64,000 nucleotides of DNA from Acanthochlamys bracteata (lineage: Eukaryota; Streptophyta; Magnoliopsida; Pandanales; Velloziaceae), in NCBI GenBank assembly GCA_019914995.1, contig CM034142.1, positions 6,943,513 to 7,007,512 of the forward strand. The letters run 5' to 3'. The position numbers and the translations under genes are program-made. Position 1 is the first letter of the stretch. The number at the start of each line of letters is the position of its first letter. Under the pieces are notes generated by a model, which worked only from the letters and a program-made list of their open reading frames with translations, did not search any database and had not been told where the DNA came from. This document shows positions 1-26,670 of the stretch, in pieces.

Positions 1-2651
1 CAGAAGCAGAGCTACTTGCAACAAAATCTACCTTCCACAAGTGGGGTTTCTTTGTCGGAGGATGTCCTTTTAACTTGTTTATTAGGTACAAGATTAGTAA
101 AAAAGCTTTGTGGCTTGTGGAGCTTATTGCTATGCTGTTGAGGGAAGTAGCTTATATAGAGGTACTCACGACACCACTCCCGGATCCTGGTAGAGAGATC
201 TCTAAAGGCGAAATCATTGTCGGGTCACAAATGAAGTCAACACTTGAGCTGATCCATTCTTATATAAAAAATGATTCTGTTACAACTATAGCAATTTGGG
301 GTATGGGCGGTGTAGGAAAGACTACGCTACTCGAACTTATCAACAATGAATTTGTGAATCTTGCAAGAACTCAGGGTGCGAAGAACTCATTCCAACATGT
401 CATATTGGTCAGTGTTAATGAGAATCATAGTTTGGAGAAGCTTCGACAAGATGTAGGCGGAGAGTTGGGCATGGTACAACTTACTGCAAGGAGTATCTTC
501 AATTTCTTGAGGAACAGAAGTTTCCTACTCTTGCTTGATAACATATGGGAAGAAATTGATTTGCATAAAGTTGGAATTCCACTTGGGCAGTCCACTGGCC
601 AACTCAAACAGATGCTTATATTTGCAACTCGATCTGAGCAAGTTTGTATCCAAATGAATGCCAGAAAATGGGTGAAGGTGGATTGTTTGGAGAAGAAAGA
701 AGCTTGGGAAATGTTTAGAAAGACTGTTGGTGAAGATGTACTTGCTGATCCAACAATAAATGAATTTGGTAGAGAGGTCGCTGAACAATGCCATGGCTTA
801 CCTCTTGCACTCAAAACTATTGGGAGAACTATGGCTACAAAGAAGAAGCCCCAACAGTGGGAACATGCATTAGCATCTCTTAGAAGATCTTGGAGTGAAG
901 CCATACCCAATATAGAGAAAAAAATGTTCAGTACACTGAAATTCTCTTATGACAACTTGCCAAATGACTTAACGAGACGATGTTTCTTGTGCTGTTCTTT
1001 GTGGCGGCAAGGTCAAAGCATCATAAAGGATGATCTTATCCGATGTTGGATCGGATTAGGATTGGTTGATGAATTTGCTGACATGGCAGAAGCGTATGGT
1101 AAAGGGCATTTCATAATCGAGGATTTGGAGGAAGCATGCCTACTAGAACCATCCACTATAGTTCCAAAAAAGGATATAGGCCTTGCGGCAGTGAAGCTAC
1201 ATGATAGTATAAGGGGCATGGCTCTTTGGATATCCTCTAAATGTGGGGCTGAAAAGAATAGATGGATTGTGGAAAAATATGTTTCAGGAGAGATTGCGAA
1301 GGTTGACAAGTGGAAAGATGCTGAGATTGTATCTGTAACATTGGCTAATAAGGTCCTTCCATGTCCTCCAGATTGCTATAAACTCTTGACGCTCATAATG
1401 CACGGCACAGTTCGTTGCCAGATCCCCAGAGGATTTTTCAAATCCATGCCATCTCTAAGATACTTGCATCTATCTGGCAAGATTTCGTATGAATGTTCAG
1501 AAGAAATTTGTAGTCTAATTGATCTACAATACCTCAAGTTGTCTGGTTTGGATTATAGGGAGCTTCATAAAGCGTTGAGACAGTTAAAGAGCCTGAGATA
1601 TCTATATATTCCATCATCGCATGATATTGATGAAGATTTTTTAAATGCACTTGCGGAATTGCCGAAGTTGGAGGTCATAGATGTATTACCCGAGGGCGAG
1701 TTCGACTTGGTCCAATTGAAGCAACTGGAACGACGTGGGCTGAAAAGTCTTTCCATGAAAGTTTCATCAATTGAAGGACTTGAGAAGCTTCGGCATTTTA
1801 ATGTCGAGCGTGTTATCATGGAAACCTTGGAAGGTGTGAGGTCACTGAAGCTACAACAGAGGAGACGCGGAATGGAAAAGTGTCTCAAATGTCTAGGGTT
1901 ATCTAAATGCGAAGACTTGGAGCGACTGACAATACACGGAGGTGCCGCCACTTCTAGGGAAGGCCAAGACAGTTGCCCACTTCAAAATCTGGAGGTCCTT
2001 GAGCTTAAGAATTTGCCGAATTTGGAGGAGATCGTTTGGGAAGGAGTTTCGGCGAGTCGGAGCTTTCGAAGCCTTCGGTGGTTACTGATTGATGATTGCA
2101 AGAGTTTGAAAAGCATAACATGGGTGGCGGAACTCCCTTCCCTTCATAGTATATTGGTAGATGAATGTGAGGGATTGGAGGAGGTTGTTAGTGGAGAAGT
2201 AGATGAAATAGATGATCCAGATAAGGTTGCATTCCCATGCCTCACATTGTTAGCCTTAGGTAATTGTCCGAGGTTGCACAGCATATCTGCTGAAGTCCTA
2301 CGTTTCCCTTCGCTGGAATATGTGCTGATCGAAGATTGCCCAGAGTTGAGGAGGCTTCCATTCCACCCAACAGTTGCTGCGAACAATCTCAAAAGCATTA
2401 GAGCTGACACTGAATGGTGGAAGAACTTGCAATGGGAAGACAAACATATCTTTGAACCATTCTTCTTTGAATGTGGAGATGATTATGAAAGGAAATTCGT
2501 GGAGGAGATATGTGGAGAGTACGAGGAGACCAGTGATGAAGAAGAAGCAGAAGCAGAAGCAAAAGAAGAAGCACTGGCAGAGCTAGCAGAGCAGAGGCAG
2601 AAAAAAGCGGAAACAACAGAAGCAGAAGAAGATGAAAAAACTTTCTTGTGA
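1..2651 (+). CDS. CC-NB-LRR disease resistance protein, 5' end outside window (CNL1)
   Basis: Intracellular immune receptor of the RPS2/RPS5-like class. The frame is open from base 3, and the first bases match the start of the last exon of the paralogue at 16.8-20.5 kb, so one or two upstream exons are missing from the window; the Met at 75 is internal. Counting from that Met, the order is P-loop GMGGVGKTT near 76-84, kinase-2 LLLLDNIW, RNBS-B FATRS, GLPLA, CFLCCSLW and an LHD form of the MHD motif. Irregular LRRs follow, then a Glu/Ala/Lys-rich acidic tail. The second kinase-2 acidic residue is Asn. RNBS-B reads FATRS, where the two paralogues here have FTTRS. No stop or frameshift is visible. 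Family knowledge gives ADP/ATP-switched signalling; the effector is unknown. Confidence 0.93.
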   Translation, partial: EAELLATKSTFHKWGFFVGGCPFNLFIRYKISKKALWLVELIAMLLREVAYIEVLTTPLPDPGREISKGEIIVGSQMKSTLELIHSYIKNDSVTTIAIWGMGGVGKTTLLELINNEFVNLARTQGAKNSFQHVILVSVNENHSLEKLRQDVGGELGMVQLTARSIFNFLRNRSFLLLLDNIWEEIDLHKVGIPLGQSTGQLKQMLIFATRSEQVCIQMNARKWVKVDCLEKKEAWEMFRKTVGEDVLADPTINEFGREVAEQCHGLPLALKTIGRTMATKKKPQQWEHALASLRRSWSEAIPNIEKKMFSTLKFSYDNLPNDLTRRCFLCCSLWRQGQSIIKDDLIRCWIGLGLVDEFADMAEAYGKGHFIIEDLEEACLLEPSTIVPKKDIGLAAVKLHDSIRGMALWISSKCGAEKNRWIVEKYVSGEIAKVDKWKDAEIVSVTLANKVLPCPPDCYKLLTLIMHGTVRCQIPRGFFKSMPSLRYLHLSGKISYECSEEICSLIDLQYLKLSGLDYRELHKALRQLKSLRYLYIPSSHDIDEDFLNALAELPKLEVIDVLPEGEFDLVQLKQLERRGLKSLSMKVSSIEGLEKLRHFNVERVIMETLEGVRSLKLQQRRRGMEKCLKCLGLSKCEDLERLTIHGGAATSREGQDSCPLQNLEVLELKNLPNLEEIVWEGVSASRSFRSLRWLLIDDCKSLKSITWVAELPSLHSILVDECEGLEEVVSGEVDEIDDPDKVAFPCLTLLALGNCPRLHSISAEVLRFPSLEYVLIEDCPELRRLPFHPTVAANNLKSIRADTEWWKNLQWEDKHIFEPFFFECGDDYERKFVEEICGEYEETSDEEEAEAEAKEEALAELAEQRQKKAETTEAEEDEKTFL

Positions 2652-2737
2652 TTTATGCCCTGTTTGGCTGTGCGAAAGCCCCAAAAAAGCAGAAAACTGT
2701 GAAGCAGGCGTTTGGATACGTCTGTTTTTAGCCGCCA

Positions 2738-2823
2738 TAAGCAGCTTTGAATAGTAAAAAATAAAAAGCTTCGAATATCAGCTGTAAGCAGCTCTGAATA
2801 GTAGAAAATAAAAAACTTCGAAT
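2738..2823. repeat. Two-copy 39-bp direct repeat downstream of CNL1
   Basis: Two near-identical 39-bp units, at 2738-2776 and 2785-2823, start TAAGCAGCT and end CTTCGAAT, with an 8-base spacer. The second runs into a short TTCGAATCGAAG palindrome. GTTTGG motifs lie just upstream, as at the ends of the AT-rich repeats elsewhere in the window. The piece lies between the CNL1 stop and the BIR-like gene. Confidence 0.7.
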
Positions 2824-3102
2824 CGAAGCTTTTCAAGCAAAGCCGCGCAGAGCTTTTCTCGCTGGGTCTGTGGAATATCCATTTTGTCCAGATAATTTAG
2901 CACAAATTACAAATATATATATTCCTAACCGAATCCGTTTCTTCACATTTCTATCATTTTTTCGCTGCTTCACCCATTCGCTCCGCTCTCGCGATTTCAC
3001 TCCTTCTCCGGAAGCGATGTTCTCTCTTCCGGCGCCGGTCCTATCAATCCTTCTTCCTTTTTTTTTTAACCTGCTCCAGCTTTTCCTCAAATCTCTACAA
3101 TC

Positions 3103-3106
<4 letters not shown>

Positions 3107-3135
<29 letters not shown>
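3107..3135. repeat. (CT)n microsatellite in probable 5' leader
   Basis: An uninterrupted 29-base CT tract about 40 bases before the first Met of the BIR-like reading frame. CT-rich leaders are common in plant genes, so this supports a retained 5' end with a promoter upstream. It proves nothing about expression. Confidence 0.8.
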
Positions 3136-3138
<3 letters not shown>

Positions 3139-3175
3139 CAACCAACGAAGTGAACGAAGCAGCGGCGGCGCTAGA

Positions 3176-3703
3176 ATGTATTTTCGATCCTTTCCCTCCG
3201 CCGCATCAGCAGCGGCGGAGATGCTGCTGCTTCTCACGGCGGCGGCACTAGCCAACGCTGCCGAAGAAGATGGCGTCAGATGCTTACGTGGAATTAAAGA
3301 TTCTCTACGCGACCTTGACGGTCGTCTGAATTGGAACTTTGGTAACTCGAGCTTTGCTGGATTCGTCTGCAACTTCAGAGGCGTTTTGTGTTGGAATGCA
3401 CTAGAGAATCGTGTGCTTTCTATTTCTCTGCCTTCCATGTTTCTCACTGGCTCTGTTCCTTCTGCTCTCCAGTTTTGTAAAACTGCGACGACTCTTGTTT
3501 TATCTTCTAACTCAATCTCTGGACAAATCCCTTCGCAGCTTTGCAATTGGTTGCCATATTTGGTTAACCTTGATCTGTCTAACAATGGTTTATCTGGCCC
3601 GATTCCACCAGAACTATCAAGCTGTAAGTATCTGAACACTCTTTACTTGAATGAAAATTTGTTATCTGGCGATATACCACAATCTCTTGCTAAATTTAGC
3701 TAA
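3176..3703 (+). CDS. Truncated BIR-like LRR receptor ectodomain (no TM, no kinase)
   Basis: This matches the N-terminal half of a BAK1-interacting receptor-like kinase ectodomain (BIR2/BIR3 group): a signal-peptide-like stretch, the capped start EEDGVRCLRG, CNFRGVLCWN, then LRRs with SGQIPSQLCNWLPYLVNLDL and SGPIPPEL. The frame stops after about three LRRs, where full-length homologues continue to five LRRs, a TM and a pseudokinase of 600 residues in all. The first Met (3176) gives 175 aa; the Met at 3221 sits right before the hydrophobic LLLLTAAALANA signal core and is an equally good start. No kinase sequence is seen downstream. If translated, the product would be a secreted LRR fragment. 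Either a decayed gene or a decoy-like remnant. Confidence 0.75.
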   Translation: MYFRSFPSAASAAAEMLLLLTAAALANAAEEDGVRCLRGIKDSLRDLDGRLNWNFGNSSFAGFVCNFRGVLCWNALENRVLSISLPSMFLTGSVPSALQFCKTATTLVLSSNSISGQIPSQLCNWLPYLVNLDLSNNGLSGPIPPELSSCKYLNTLYLNENLLSGDIPQSLAKFS

Positions 3704-8099: not shown

Positions 8100-9824
8100 A
8101 TGACCCGACCCGAAAACCCGACTCGAAACCGACCTGCTAAAATCGGGTTCGGGTCAAGGTATAAACGGGTTTGGGTCATTTTCGGGTCAACCCCGAAATT
8201 GACCCGGTAAAATAAACGGGTTCGGGTCAATTTCAGGTCAACCCGAAAGTGACCCGATCAACCCGAATAAGTTAAATATTTATGCCGAGTCGCTGACCAA
8301 CAGACCAAGTGCGTTAGGGTTTTTTCTTCCGAATCTTTTCAAACGGCGTCTCAAACTCTCATAGCGTAATCTACAGATCTAGATTTTTTCTTCCAATTTT
8401 TCGATAATCTTTTTCAGATCTACTCTTCCAAATCTTCTTCTTGCCGGATCTATTATCATTTTTCACCTCTCGTCGAACTCGTCTCCTTCCTGGCCGGTTG
8501 AATTCTTGTCATTTTGAGTCGGATCTACTGTTTTGTAAAGCCACGGCGTCGCGCGTTTGAATCTCTACTCCCTTCGTGAGTTCGCATATTTTCTATTGGT
8601 CTTTCAGTCTTTCCTTCGCTGTCGTCGACAAAGATCAATGTAAGAATTTTAACATTTAGATCTATAAAATTTGATTATTTTGCGTTTGCTATGCTTTCGC
8701 TTCTAGAGTTTATTTTGTGTGCATAATAGAATATTCAGTTGAACTGTTCTCTTAGTAATATAGTCTCTTTTGCTGTTGGAGTTCAAGGAACACCATTTGT
8801 CATTGCTTCATTGCTTCATGCTTCCAGCATTGTGCTAGTGGTCCCTTTTTTCGTTTCTTACACAGAGAATTGAATTGCTTCATGCTTCATCTTGTTATTT
8901 TCCTTTCAAACCTTATGCCAGTTTATTATTTAAATAAAGTTTTCAGATTTTTATTTTTTCCCTATAAGATAATTGAATTGAATTGGATAATTATAACAAA
9001 ATTAATGGATACTTCTTTTGCTCTGTGTTTCGATTTGTTAATTAATACTAGTTGCTTTTCGTATCTAGTTCTAAGGATCTATGTGAGCTTTTTATGTATC
9101 ACCTAAAAACCACCATTATTCAATCTCATTAACTTTGAGTATCTGTTTAATTAGGCTTTTTTTCAGCCTCTTATAATTTTTAAACCATGTTGTATTAAGA
9201 GAGACAGTGATATATATGTTAATACATTAATTAAAATAATACTAGTGATATAAAGTTCAAAGCAAATATATATATATATATATAGTTTTAGTTTCACGTA
9301 GATTTAAGCAATTTAAGAAAACATGGGAAAGTGGAGTGTTAATAGTTTATAGTGAACTAATTAACTAGTTAGTTTGTAGCTTGTAGTTTGTTTTCTTCAA
9401 GACTAATAGAGTTTATTTGTCTAGAGAATAATTATATCCATCCTTGTTCTCTCATCTTTATATGTTCGTCGATTGAGCAAAAATGTAATTTTTTTTTTTT
9501 AACTTTATATTGTTCTTCATATTGTATTATTATCAGAAAGTTGTTAAACATAACCTTATTTTTTAGAAAATTCATGTGGCATTTACAAAAGTAATCATGT
9601 GGTATCTTTTATACTTAGTTTCCAAAATTAAGTAGAGTCTAGTTAATATAATATAAATGATTTGTTTCATTCATTTTATTTTCTATAATTTTTATATGTT
9701 AAATTGTCAATCAATAAGTTTTATATTATTGAACTTATATGCAAGTGTGTACATAGAAGAAGAAATACAAATATTTTATGGATGCACTGAAAATACACGG
9801 AGTAGTCAGGGGATAATTCAGTGA

Positions 9825-15969: not shown

Positions 15970-16796
15970 GATCTATCTACTGGAATGGTTCTTAAAAACA
16001 TCTCTTTGTTGTCTTTGTGAAATGGTTTTGGTTGGCAGGTATAATTTTGCCATATCTAAAATTCTTTTGAATGCAACGAACAGTTCAACGAAAGAAAAAT
16101 TTTTTTTAGGACAATGGCATCCAGCTAGGTAATTGCTATTCGCCGTAACCGAAAAGAATTAGGGTTTGTTTGGGGATTACTTTCAGAACTTCTTAATTTT
16201 ATACTTTATAATAAATTAAACTTTATTTAAAAATTTAAAAATATAAAAATTTTATATCGTAAAATTTATTTTTAGATAAAAAATAAAACTTATTTTATAA
16301 AATAAAATAAAAATATTCTTTTATTTTAAAAAATTATAAATACTTTCGAATAACTGCTTAATTTGTAATTAAAATAACAAATTGGAACAATTTGATATCT
16401 AACGACTCACCCGTAAATAAATAACAAACAGTTCAACAGATCAATTTGAAATCAACTCTCGTAGAGAGTCTATATAAAAATCACCAACTTTACTAGAGAG
16501 TTTATATAAACTGACCAATTTGAAGTCTTCCGACAAGTTTCTTAAGCAACGAGAGAGCACATGGTCCAGTTGTACATCATATCCATTAGTGAATGACCAA
16601 CTATATTAAAATTAAATAGTTTTGATAATTTTTAACAGCTCTGTTTGTTCTAATTTAAAGCAAGTTGTTGTTGTTGTGCATTTGATTTTGTTTATGATCT
16701 TAAACCCACCTTAATAGATCTTACCTACTACTACTAATCATCTCTGAGAACTCTCTTGGTTGCTGAGCATTTGCAGAGAAGGAAGAAGTAAGAGAT
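15970..16796. repeat. CNL2 upstream region, partly duplicated before CNL3
   Basis: Blocks here match about 37290-37719 in order: the CTTTGTTGTCTTTGTGAA segment, the AGGTATAATTTTGCC segment, AACAGTTCAACGAAAG, CTATTCGCCGTAA, CTGTTTGTTCTAATTTAAAG and the last 110 bases before the start codon, almost unchanged. The CNL3 side lacks about 300 bases present here. The two genes were therefore copied with their promoters. No TATA box can be picked with confidence. Confidence 0.75.
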
Positions 16797-23090: not shown

Positions 23091-23210
23091 AAAAACAAAG
23101 CCCAGCCCATTAAGGGAAACCTGTAGCTATTACTTAAGTTGACCTAACCAAAAAAAAAACTAAAACTTCCTGAAAACCCTAAACCTTCTCCCCAGTCTCC
23201 CTTATAAATT
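23091..23210 (+). promoter_or_regulatory. Fibrillarin promoter: site II, telo-box and TATA box
   Basis: AGCCCAGCCCATT (23099-23111) is a pair of inverted TGGGC(T/C) site II elements. AAACCCTAA (23174-23182) is a telo-box. TATAAAT (23203-23209) is a TATA box 50 bases before the start codon. Site II plus telo-box is the known signature of plant ribosome-biogenesis and translation genes, bound by TCP-type and telo-box factors. This fits fibrillarin exactly. Confidence 0.75.
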
Positions 23211-23258: not shown

Positions 23259-26200
23259 ATGAGACCCCCAAGAGGTAATAAAAAATTTCAATACTTGCAA
23301 CTTTGATTCTTGTTTCTGTTCAGATTTAGATGATTTAAGACAGTTCGAGTTGTGTTTCTGCTGTTTTGTTTAATTTCATATGGAATGTGATTTATTTGGA
23401 GTTATTATTTTGAAACTATTATAGCTGTTTTATGTAGTTTACCGAAAAATTTTGTTTTGGAATGGTTAGTTAAGCTATAGATGTTGTATTGTAAGCTTGG
23501 AAGATTATTAAAAGTCCCTTTTCTTTGGTTTCATGTGGAATATTTCTGATTTTGTGTGAATCTTTAAACAACTATTTACAGCTGTTCTAGGTCTAGTTTT
23601 TCATTATTGTACAGTAAATTCGTATTTGTTTTTGTCTTTTTTGAATCACTATTAGGTGGTGGTAAGTATTAAGTGAAATTTGGATATTTTTGGGGAACAG
23701 GTGATTACAACTATGAAGTTCATGTCAATTTAGATCACTATGTTTTAGATTATTCACTTAATTAAACTTTTATTTCCTTTTCTGTGAAATTTGTTATCAC
23801 GAGTGAAGTTTTGACTGTGTTCTTACTATAAATTTGTTTTCTGATACTTTTACTTTTCTGAAATGTGATCAGGACGTGGAGGTGGCTTCAGAGGCCGTAG
23901 TGATGGTGGCGGTGGTAGAGGTAGGGGCCGGGGTGGTGGTGGAAGAGGTGATTGGGGAGGTCGTGGTGGTAGAGGCCGTGGCGGGGGCCGCGATGGTGGA
24001 CGTGGGGCAGGGAGAGGCCGTGGAGGTCGTGGTGGTGGAATGAAGGGAGGGAGCAAGGTTGTTGTTGAGCCACATAGACATGAAGGTGTTTTCATTGCAA
24101 AGGGCAAGGAAGATGCACTTTGCACCAAGAACATGGTCCCCGGAGAATCAGTCTATGGCGAGAAGAGAATTGCTGTGCTGGTAATTGCAAAAGACTGATC
24201 TTTGTTTGTCGTGTGTTTGTAGGCAGAAAAGATATTAATTACTGTTTTGGAATTGCAGAATGAAGATGGGAGCAAGACAGAGTACAGAGTGTGGAACCCT
24301 TTCAGGTCGAAGCTTGCTGCTGCTATTCTTGGTGGTGTTGACAACATCTGGATTGTGAGTGCTCTTCATTTTCCGACAATTACTAACTTAAAGTATGTTA
24401 ACATCGACAGTAGAGTTTACATTAGTTAGAAATGAATAACTTTGAAGATCTTAATTATTCTATGCTACTAATTGCTTTTTTAACCAAAGTTCGTAGACAG
24501 CTAGGTTTATCTTAAAGCTATGTTCAGATGATCTCCTTGCATTATTATATGGAAAATCTATCTGTAATCTATTATTCTGATAGAGTGAACTTTATGTCTT
24601 ACACTGAAGCCTTCTAACAATGTCAGTCATTAATCTTTGTTGAGCTGTAATTTTATGGTTGCTAGGTAGTATATGGTGTACGCTTCATTTTATTTTGTAT
24701 ATGATGCCTGCAATGAGTATTTATTTGTAGATATGAGCTTTATGATTAACACTTTGCCTATAGGCACCTGGAGCAAGAGTCCTTTACCTTGGCGCTGCTT
24801 CGGGGACAACTGTTTCACATGTCTCTGACATTGTTGGACCTGTATGCTTCTTCTCCCTTTGAATTTCAAGGATCTTTTTCTATCCACATACATTTGTCAT
24901 AAAGGAGCATTTGTGGGATGTTTTTGTATCTATTTGGTTTTGCTTGCAGACTGGAATGGTCTATGCTGTTGAGTTTTCTCATAGAAGTGGCAGGGACCTC
25001 GTGAACATGGCAAAGAAAAGAACAAATGTCATTCCCATTATTGAAGATGCTAGGCATCCTGCAAAATATAGAATGTTGGTTGGAATGGTGGATGTTATAT
25101 TTTCCGATGTTGCCCAGCCAGATCAGGTTTGCGTAATAATCTTCTAGTTTTTGAAGAGCAATGTTCCTCTTTTCACCTTTATACTCTAACATTCTTACTA
25201 GATTGTTGATTGTTTTAGTTTACCCATGTACAAGGAAAACATAAGGATTTTTGTCCATACAATTTGTGCTTGTCAATTTGTTTTGGCATAACTAAGCATT
25301 CTCCTGAGAACTTGTCGTTTTCGAAACTTTATGTTTGCGCCTTAATTTCAATATGTTGTACCTTGTTTCTACACTACACTTGTGTATAGGTAATAGTATG
25401 TCATTACATTTTTGTTTGAGTTCCATTGAGGACATATGGTAAATTTCATGAAGTTCCTAAATGTTTGTAGTTCTTTTTTATGAGCGTCTTTTTCAAGTAC
25501 ATGATGAGTTACTTGGATTCCCCTTCAGGACATCATAATGGATGATGCACATTCGAGTTTTCGCTGATGCCTTGGCTACCTTAATATAGTCGTGAGCTAG
25601 ATTTTTGAATCTTTTCTTCTTTTTGTGTAGTTTTGTTGATTTTACACATGCTTAATTTCTGAAAGGGAGGCTTAATTTGAAGCATATGATGACTTACCCG
25701 GATTCCCCTTCAGGACTTCCAATGGATGATGCAGATTCGGGTGTCTGATGCATACACTGCTGCTCATCACTTGCCTTGTTTAGGATTTTAAAGATTCCAA
25801 TATTTTCTAGATTGAACTGTTCCATCTTTATCTTGTTCTAAACTAGAAAGTTCTTTTCATCTTATTTTCATTTAGTAAACGTTCAGTTGCCCGGTTTTCT
25901 TGTGAAATGTTTTCTGTCAGCATTATATTTTTGTATATTTCTCTAGCATATCAGATAACTTTGCAAGAATACAGCATGCACTACTGCAAGAAACGCTGTT
26001 TCTGACACGAGAATAATGATACTGAGCTAATAGTGTTATTCATGTGTTTTATCTAGCTTGTTATAGAGGTGATCACCATGTGCTTCAATACTAAACCCCT
26101 GACTTCCAAGAATTCATGCATGAAGTTCATACATTTAGTAGTACAACTTTGCATGGTGAACATTGGCTACTGAAAAGCTACGGCCGCATATAAGGTTTCT

Positions 26201-26670
26201 TGTTATAAGGACCGTTCAGAGTGCTGAATGTAGTCTCCAAGCTGCTATGCCATGATTCTTTGAATTGGTGACAATGTGTTGTATGAATATGCTGATTTCG
26301 TGCTTGTTACTTCATCACTGACCTTGTGTCATGTTCTTCAGGCAAGAATTCTGGCTCTCAATGCCTCATACTTCTTGAAGGATGGTGGTCACTTTGTAAT
26401 ATCAATTAAGGTATTCTTTTTCACTTAGCTACTACAAAGGTTGTATGTGCAACTGTTCTTAATGAGCTCATGGTTTTACTTCGCCAGGCAAACTGCATAG
26501 ACTCCACTGTTCCAGCAGAAGCTGTGTTTGCACAAGAAGTTAAAAAGCTACAAGCTGAGCAGTTCAAGCCATCAGAGCAAGTAACCCTTGAGCCCTTCGA
26601 AAGAGATCACGCCTGTGTTGTTGGCGGCTACCGGATGCCAAAGAAGCAGAAGCCCGCCACAGCTGCATAA
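23259..26670 (+). CDS. FIB: Fibrillarin, box C/D snoRNP 2'-O-methyltransferase
   Basis: SAM-dependent enzyme that 2'-O-methylates rRNA in C/D snoRNPs in the nucleolus. Seven exons: 23259-23274, 23873-24180, 24259-24354, 24764-24841, 24950-25126, 26342-26410 and 26488-26670, 308 aa in all. The tiny first exon encodes MRPPR plus one base. A Gly/Arg-rich (GAR) domain fills about residues 6-63. The methyltransferase fold follows: [14 protein letters not shown], the SAM-binding [43 protein letters not shown], and the C-terminal [16 protein letters not shown]. The length fits plant fibrillarin (about 310-320 aa). All splice sites are GT-AG. Intron 5 (25127-26341) is the long one and hosts the snoRNA candidates, as in Arabidopsis FIB1/FIB2. 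Confidence is high. Confidence 0.97.
25494..25574 (+). ncRNA. C/D-box snoRNA candidate, U60 family (copy 1)
   Basis: In intron 5 of fibrillarin. C box ATGATGA at 25501-25507, C'-like GGATGATG at 25540-25547, D box CTGA at 25564-25567. CAAG (25494-25497) can pair with CTTG (25571-25574) as an outer stem, with mismatches next to the boxes. The core GGATTCCCCTTCAGGA is shared exactly with copy 2. Arabidopsis fibrillarin genes carry a U60 snoRNA in the same intron, which is the main reason for the name. Confidence 0.75.
25682..25751 (+). ncRNA. C/D-box snoRNA candidate, U60 family (copy 2)
   Basis: C box ATGATGA at 25686-25692, C'-like GGATGATG at 25724-25731, D box CTGA at 25745-25748. GCA (25682-25684) pairs with TGC (25749-25751) around the boxes. 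It is alignable with copy 1 over nearly all its length, differing mostly next to the boxes. Of the two, this has the better terminal stem and looks the likelier functional copy. Confidence 0.8.

Follow-up and report, generated by a model that had tools for sequence, protein, structure and literature searches.

Tandem snoR60 (U60) box C/D snoRNAs in the fifth intron of a fibrillarin gene of Acanthochlamys bracteata

Intron 5 of a fibrillarin gene of Acanthochlamys bracteata carries two paralogous elements that are almost certainly snoR60/U60 box C/D snoRNAs, each with a guide for 25S rRNA upstream of its D' box. They were found in a window of 64,000 nucleotides, i.e. the whole stretch of DNA that was analysed, and the coordinates of their parts and of the host gene are collected in Table 1.

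Table 1. Features of the snoR60 pair and its host gene. Positions are counted from the first base of the window.
Feature	Position	Strand	Details
Host promoter motifs	23099..23182	+	AGCCCA at 23099 and 23104; telo box AAACCCTAA at 23174-23182
Fibrillarin host gene, coding span	23259..26670	+	308 aa; open joined frame; PF01269, 1e-109
Fibrillarin exons	23259-23274, 23873-24180, 24259-24354, 24764-24841, 24950-25126, 26342-26410, 26488-26670	+	
Intron 5 (of 6)	25127..26341	+	holds both snoRNAs
snoR60 copy 1	25495..25571	+	RF00339, 68.5 bits
Copy 1 C box	25501..25507	+	ATGATGA
Copy 1 internal stem (possible), 5' arm	25511..25518	+	ACTTGGAT; overlaps guide
Copy 1 rRNA guide	25513..25525	+	TTGGATTCCCCTT; pairs with 25S AAGGGGAATCCGA; 13 pairs, one G.U
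Copy 1 degenerate D' box region	25526..25530	+	CAGGA; limits inferred
Copy 1 C'-like box	25540..25547	+	GGATGATG; limits inferred
Copy 1 internal stem (possible), 3' arm	25551..25558	+	ATTCGAGT
Copy 1 D box	25564..25567	+	CTGA
snoR60 copy 2	25680..25752	+	RF00339, 74.1 bits
Copy 2 C box	25686..25692	+	ATGATGA
Copy 2 internal stem (possible), 5' arm	25696..25703	+	ACCCGGAT; overlaps guide
Copy 2 rRNA guide	25699..25710	+	CGGATTCCCCTT; 12 Watson-Crick pairs with 25S AAGGGGAATCCG
Copy 2 degenerate D' box region	25711..25715	+	CAGGA; limits inferred
Copy 2 C'-like box	25724..25731	+	GGATGATG; limits inferred
Copy 2 internal stem (possible), 3' arm	25735..25742	+	ATTCGGGT
Copy 2 D box	25745..25748	+	CTGA

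Identity of the two copies and of their host gene

Rfam scanning of the whole window returned exactly two matches at or above the gathering scores, both to RF00339 (snoR60). Both span positions 1-72 of the 72-position model and score above its curated cut-off of 40 bits, and their E values for the whole window (2.1e-14 and 7.5e-13) indicate that the matches are not due to chance. Among other snoRNA families, sR28 and SNORD86 gave weak Rfam matches over the two stretches, under the cut-off. Each copy has an exact C box (RUGAUGA) near its 5' end and an exact D box (CUGA) near its 3' end, and these boxes, together with the C'-like box and the GGATTCCCCTTCAGGA core, are identical between the copies. 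The two C boxes begin at a distance of 185 bases, with 118 bases from the D box of copy 1 to the C box of copy 2. The initial annotation had proposed such a pair at this place, i.e. C/D snoRNAs of the U60 type with shared boxes and core, hosted by fibrillarin intron 5 as in Arabidopsis, and on these points the analysis agrees with it.

The terminal stem is present but weak, with 3 bp in each copy. It had been described as poorer in copy 1, which is correct next to the boxes, where copy 2 has GCA/UGC and copy 1 has GUA/UGC with one U.G wobble; but folding, which had been suggested as a check, gives copy 1 an additional outer stem (CAAG/CUUG). The same folding puts the energies of both units at the mean of their shuffles and no better (z -0.10 and -0.07).

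The host gene consists of seven exons and six introns, with GT..AG borders in all six introns, and its joined exons encode a protein of 308 residues with the fibrillarin domain (PF01269, 1e-109). Both snoRNAs fall within the fifth of these introns. Barneche et al. reportedly described U60 in 2000 from the fifth intron of the Arabidopsis fibrillarin genes. A telo box and two AGCCCA motifs, the latter of which we take to be site II in the opposite orientation, lie 5' of the ATG, and the same kinds of motif are found 5' of the second fibrillarin gene described below. Telo boxes (AAACCCTAA) also occur at 8314-8322 and 16159-16167 on the minus strand of the window, giving three against about one expected by chance, a number reached in 6 of 100 shuffles; the two additional boxes may belong to the promoters of other genes with a role in translation.

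The 25S guide and the paralogous pair

Searching the plant's own genome with RF00339 gave five matches, four of them over the cut-off: the two in the window and two on contig C9, where a second fibrillarin gene carries them in its intron 5. Since 61 of 27,354 first-look candidates were scored in this search, four snoR60 copies is a lower bound. The fifth match (contig C11, 27 bits, E 0.18) is without the GGATTCCCC core and was discarded as a chance match. When searched with degenerate flanks, the snoR60 core had no matches in genome_contigs or viral_contigs, which hold bacteria, archaea and viruses and are uninformative for plants.

In all four copies the stretch upstream of the D' box is complementary to 25S rRNA at AAGGGGAATCCG(A) over 12-13 pairs. 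The pairing ends at the D' box, and a G.U pair occurs in window copy 1. The Watson-Crick runs of 11-13 bases were equalled by 0-1 of 500 shuffled guides for the four guides; when three of these were retested with more 18S, 0-7 of 500 shuffles did so. The duplex energies range from -21.6 to -23.7 kcal/mol. For these comparisons, 25S was represented by assembly fragments that, apart from small gaps, span model positions 24-1170 and 1489-3399, and 18S by two long but incomplete fragments and one short fragment, also from the assembly. The few searches made of this genome showed rRNA as partial pieces only, on contigs C498, C457, C7, C199, C279 and C383, and no intact rDNA unit was seen in them.

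The two window copies share one predicted 25S target. This is one G of a GGGG run, taken to be the equivalent of Arabidopsis 25S Gm2125. By the +5 rule, CAGG as the D' box selects the third G and AGGA the second, and the choice between them is ambiguous because the D' box region, CAGGA, is degenerate. Since the predicted target is the same for both copies, the pair would raise dosage and not add a second target. We infer expression, processing and rRNA methylation for A. bracteata along the following lines. As in other members of the family, splicing or cleavage of the fibrillarin pre-mRNA would free intron 5, and both snoR60 RNAs would be trimmed from it; the predicted next step is assembly with the C/D core proteins of such snoRNAs (fibrillarin, NOP56, NOP58 and 15.5K), after which the sequence preceding D' would be offered to 25S at AAGGGGAATCCGA, leading to 2'-O-methylation of one G of the run.

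The two fibrillarin paralogues are identical at 303 of 308 residues (dN 0.011, Ks 0.338, NG86). Measured from C box to D box, window copy 1 is identical to C9 copy 1 at 64/67 positions and to its own neighbour at 53/63. The corresponding values are 52/63 for window copy 2 and C9 copy 2, 54/63 for window copy 2 and C9 copy 1, 46/64 for window copy 1 and C9 copy 2, and 47/64 for the two C9 copies. The value of 54/63 speaks slightly against a plain grouping of the second copies, because C9 copy 2 is much changed, and the grouping of copies therefore relies on shared features. One is the spacing from stem arm to D box, which is five bases in the copy-1 units and two in the copy-2 units and the Rfam consensus. 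In addition, CCGG and GGGT in the copy-2 units correspond to TCGG and GAGT in C9 copy 1 and the consensus. C9 copy 2 (locus L009, 2880-2953, minus strand) is altered in its C and D' boxes, but the 12-base guide is retained, as is the possible internal stem discussed below; at its ends, outer complementarity (AACUUCAA/UUGAAGUU) was noted by eye. When intron 5 of the two paralogues is aligned, copy 1 stands out as a clear conserved island (39/40 and 33/40 in its alignment windows) and copy 2 is less marked (34/40 and 28/32), against a background in which some alignment windows reach 34/39 or 33/39.

The presence of the tandem pair in intron 5 of both genes indicates that it is probably older than the duplication of the gene (Ks 0.34). 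Judged from the sequences, the simplest history would be tandem duplication first and gene duplication later, which suggests that the guide was doubled before its host gene was. The initial annotation had envisaged a local duplication with divergence of one of the two copies. The copies are indeed related as by duplication, but recent divergence at this locus does not fit a pair that is also present in the paralogue, nor a copy 1 that is nearer to its C9 counterpart than to its neighbour; and the most decayed unit is neither window copy but C9 copy 2 (54.6 bits, C box TTGATGG, D' region TAGGG).

The condition of that unit fits a rather unlikely alternative, namely that each gene has one functional copy next to a relic that is drifting, so that the doubling is without consequence. 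The weaker box-proximal stem of window copy 1 and the G.U pair in its guide duplex point the same way; however, in both window copies the C and D boxes match exactly and the guide pairs over 12-13 bp, and copy 1 differs at 3 of 67 sites despite a Ks of about 0.34 between the genes.

The sequence before the D box

Many C/D snoRNAs have two guides. The sequences next to the D boxes do differ between the copies, and the initial annotation had taken these sequences to set the target. That this stretch directs the two copies to methylation sites of their own in rRNA is extremely improbable: the four D-flanks reach Watson-Crick runs of 7-8 bases at best with the 25S, 18S and 5.8S fragments, runs that are equalled by 226 to 452 of 500 shuffles, and the spacer before D is three bases longer in copy-1 types than in copy-2 types or the Rfam consensus, which would shift the +5 site. 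The rRNA guide lies instead upstream of D' and is directed at one common site. Complementarity of ten or more bases, which had been proposed as a check for the regions upstream of both boxes, is thus present upstream of D' (12-13 pairs) and absent upstream of D (7-8). We reject the D-flank as a second guide for the rRNA parts tested, its pairing being no better than chance; these parts are 25S outside model positions 1171-1488 (about 300 positions), incomplete 18S, and 5.8S.

It is more likely that the D-flank folds back on the 5' half of the guide to close an internal stem than that it serves as a second guide. The two stretches are complementary over eight pairs (ACYYGGAU/AUUCGRGU), which end pairs lengthen to ten in the copy-2 types, and single-strand folds of the units include the stem. 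It can form in all four over-cut-off genomic copies and in the Rfam consensus, with standard pairs in 40/40 cells. One pair is compensatory, being U-A in the copy-1 types and the consensus and C-G in the copy-2 types, and there is also one change from C-G to U.G. Stem energies range from -6.9 to -14.1 kcal/mol overall (-6.9 and -9.5 for copy-1 types, -13.6 and -14.1 for copy-2 types). Exchanging arms between the copy types is costly in one direction only. Joining the copy-2 guide to the copy-1 flank weakens the stem from -13.6 to -4.2 kcal/mol, whereas the copy-1 guide loses nothing with the copy-2 flank (-8.6 to -11.1, compared with -6.9 and -9.5 for its own flank), since G.U pairs are allowed.

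In favour of the stem, the length reached by the 3' flank was equalled in 3 to 182 of 5000 shuffles for the different sequences. Both the covariation score and the share of paired cells were equalled by 55 of 500 shuffles and the count of double-changed pairs (one) by 344 of 500, and a random pair of single changes preserves all eight pairs in 50 of 576 cases. The compensatory evidence, as it can be read from this alignment, is only suggestive. The Rfam consensus structure has a terminal stem of 4 bp alone and no internal stem. With weak shuffle controls, and with just four genomic copies and an overall MFE at the shuffle mean (z near 0) counting against it, the internal stem is a fair hypothesis and not a result, and we are evenly divided on whether it is a real structure. 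As for its role, we infer that the stem, occupying the 5' half of the guide, would have to be displaced by rRNA; since the rRNA duplex is far more stable than the stem, the rRNA should be able to open it.

A stronger proposal, which we consider unlikely, is that ATTCGRGT before the D box is a built-in mimic of the target, similar enough to part of the rRNA site for pairing with the 5' half of the guide; the two arms would change together, and the mimic would keep the guide closed until rRNA displaces it. If this were true, the mimic would set a threshold for binding or protect the free RNP, and the copy-2 types, with their stronger stem and similar rRNA duplex, would be a more tightly gated version of copy 1. 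Should the stem prove to exist in plants generally, it would account for the retention of the D-flank, for which no rRNA target was found, and would provide a simple case of a self-gating guide RNA. Internal pairing of the snoR60 guide was not recognised in the available parts of the literature matches listed, including PMC6770171.

Relation to known plant systems

In Arabidopsis, according to the available part of PMC8053127, U60.1F is encoded in an intron of FIB1 and U60.2F in an intron of FIB2, which agrees with the fibrillarin host that the initial annotation had named. The same text states that in the fib1-1 mutant U60.1F is not expressed and methylation of 25S_G2125, “the target of U60”, drops, and that in fib2-1 both U60.1F expression and 25S_G2125 methylation are unaffected. 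As it also describes rRNA methylation as generally lowered in fib1-1, the mutant is no clean proof of the U60 target. In the part of PMC6461891 that was available, the target of U60.1F is listed as LSU-G2114, presumably in another numbering. An excerpt of a review (PMC8351944) credits the discovery of U60 to Barneche et al. 2000. The “fifth intron” mentioned in the available part of PMC4140647 is that of a different gene. Tandem U60 pairs are not described in the accessible parts of the literature matches listed, a search that did not take in Barneche et al. 2000, and the snoR60 core sequence had no literature match.

The Arabidopsis U60.1F and U60.2F and the A. bracteata copies are thus alike in RNA family (RF00339) and in fibrillarin host; on the 25S_G2125 assignment as given in the published excerpt, their target would probably be the same. 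They differ in number: the available Arabidopsis text names one U60 for each of FIB1 and FIB2, whereas A. bracteata has two per fibrillarin gene in the two genes found. The arrangement couples the synthesis of the methyltransferase with that of one of its own guides, a linkage published for Arabidopsis. Related snoRNAs within one intron of a ribosome-biogenesis gene, as seen here, are also a feature of the intronic and polycistronic snoRNA clusters of Arabidopsis and rice, and the combination of a telo box with site II, also seen here, is reported for the promoters of plant hosts of intronic snoRNAs (PMC3022908, available part). Compared with those clusters, the A. bracteata intron has two members found, of one family. 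The pair is therefore largely ordinary, i.e. a new tandem instance of the known plant arrangement in which snoR60 resides in a fibrillarin intron.
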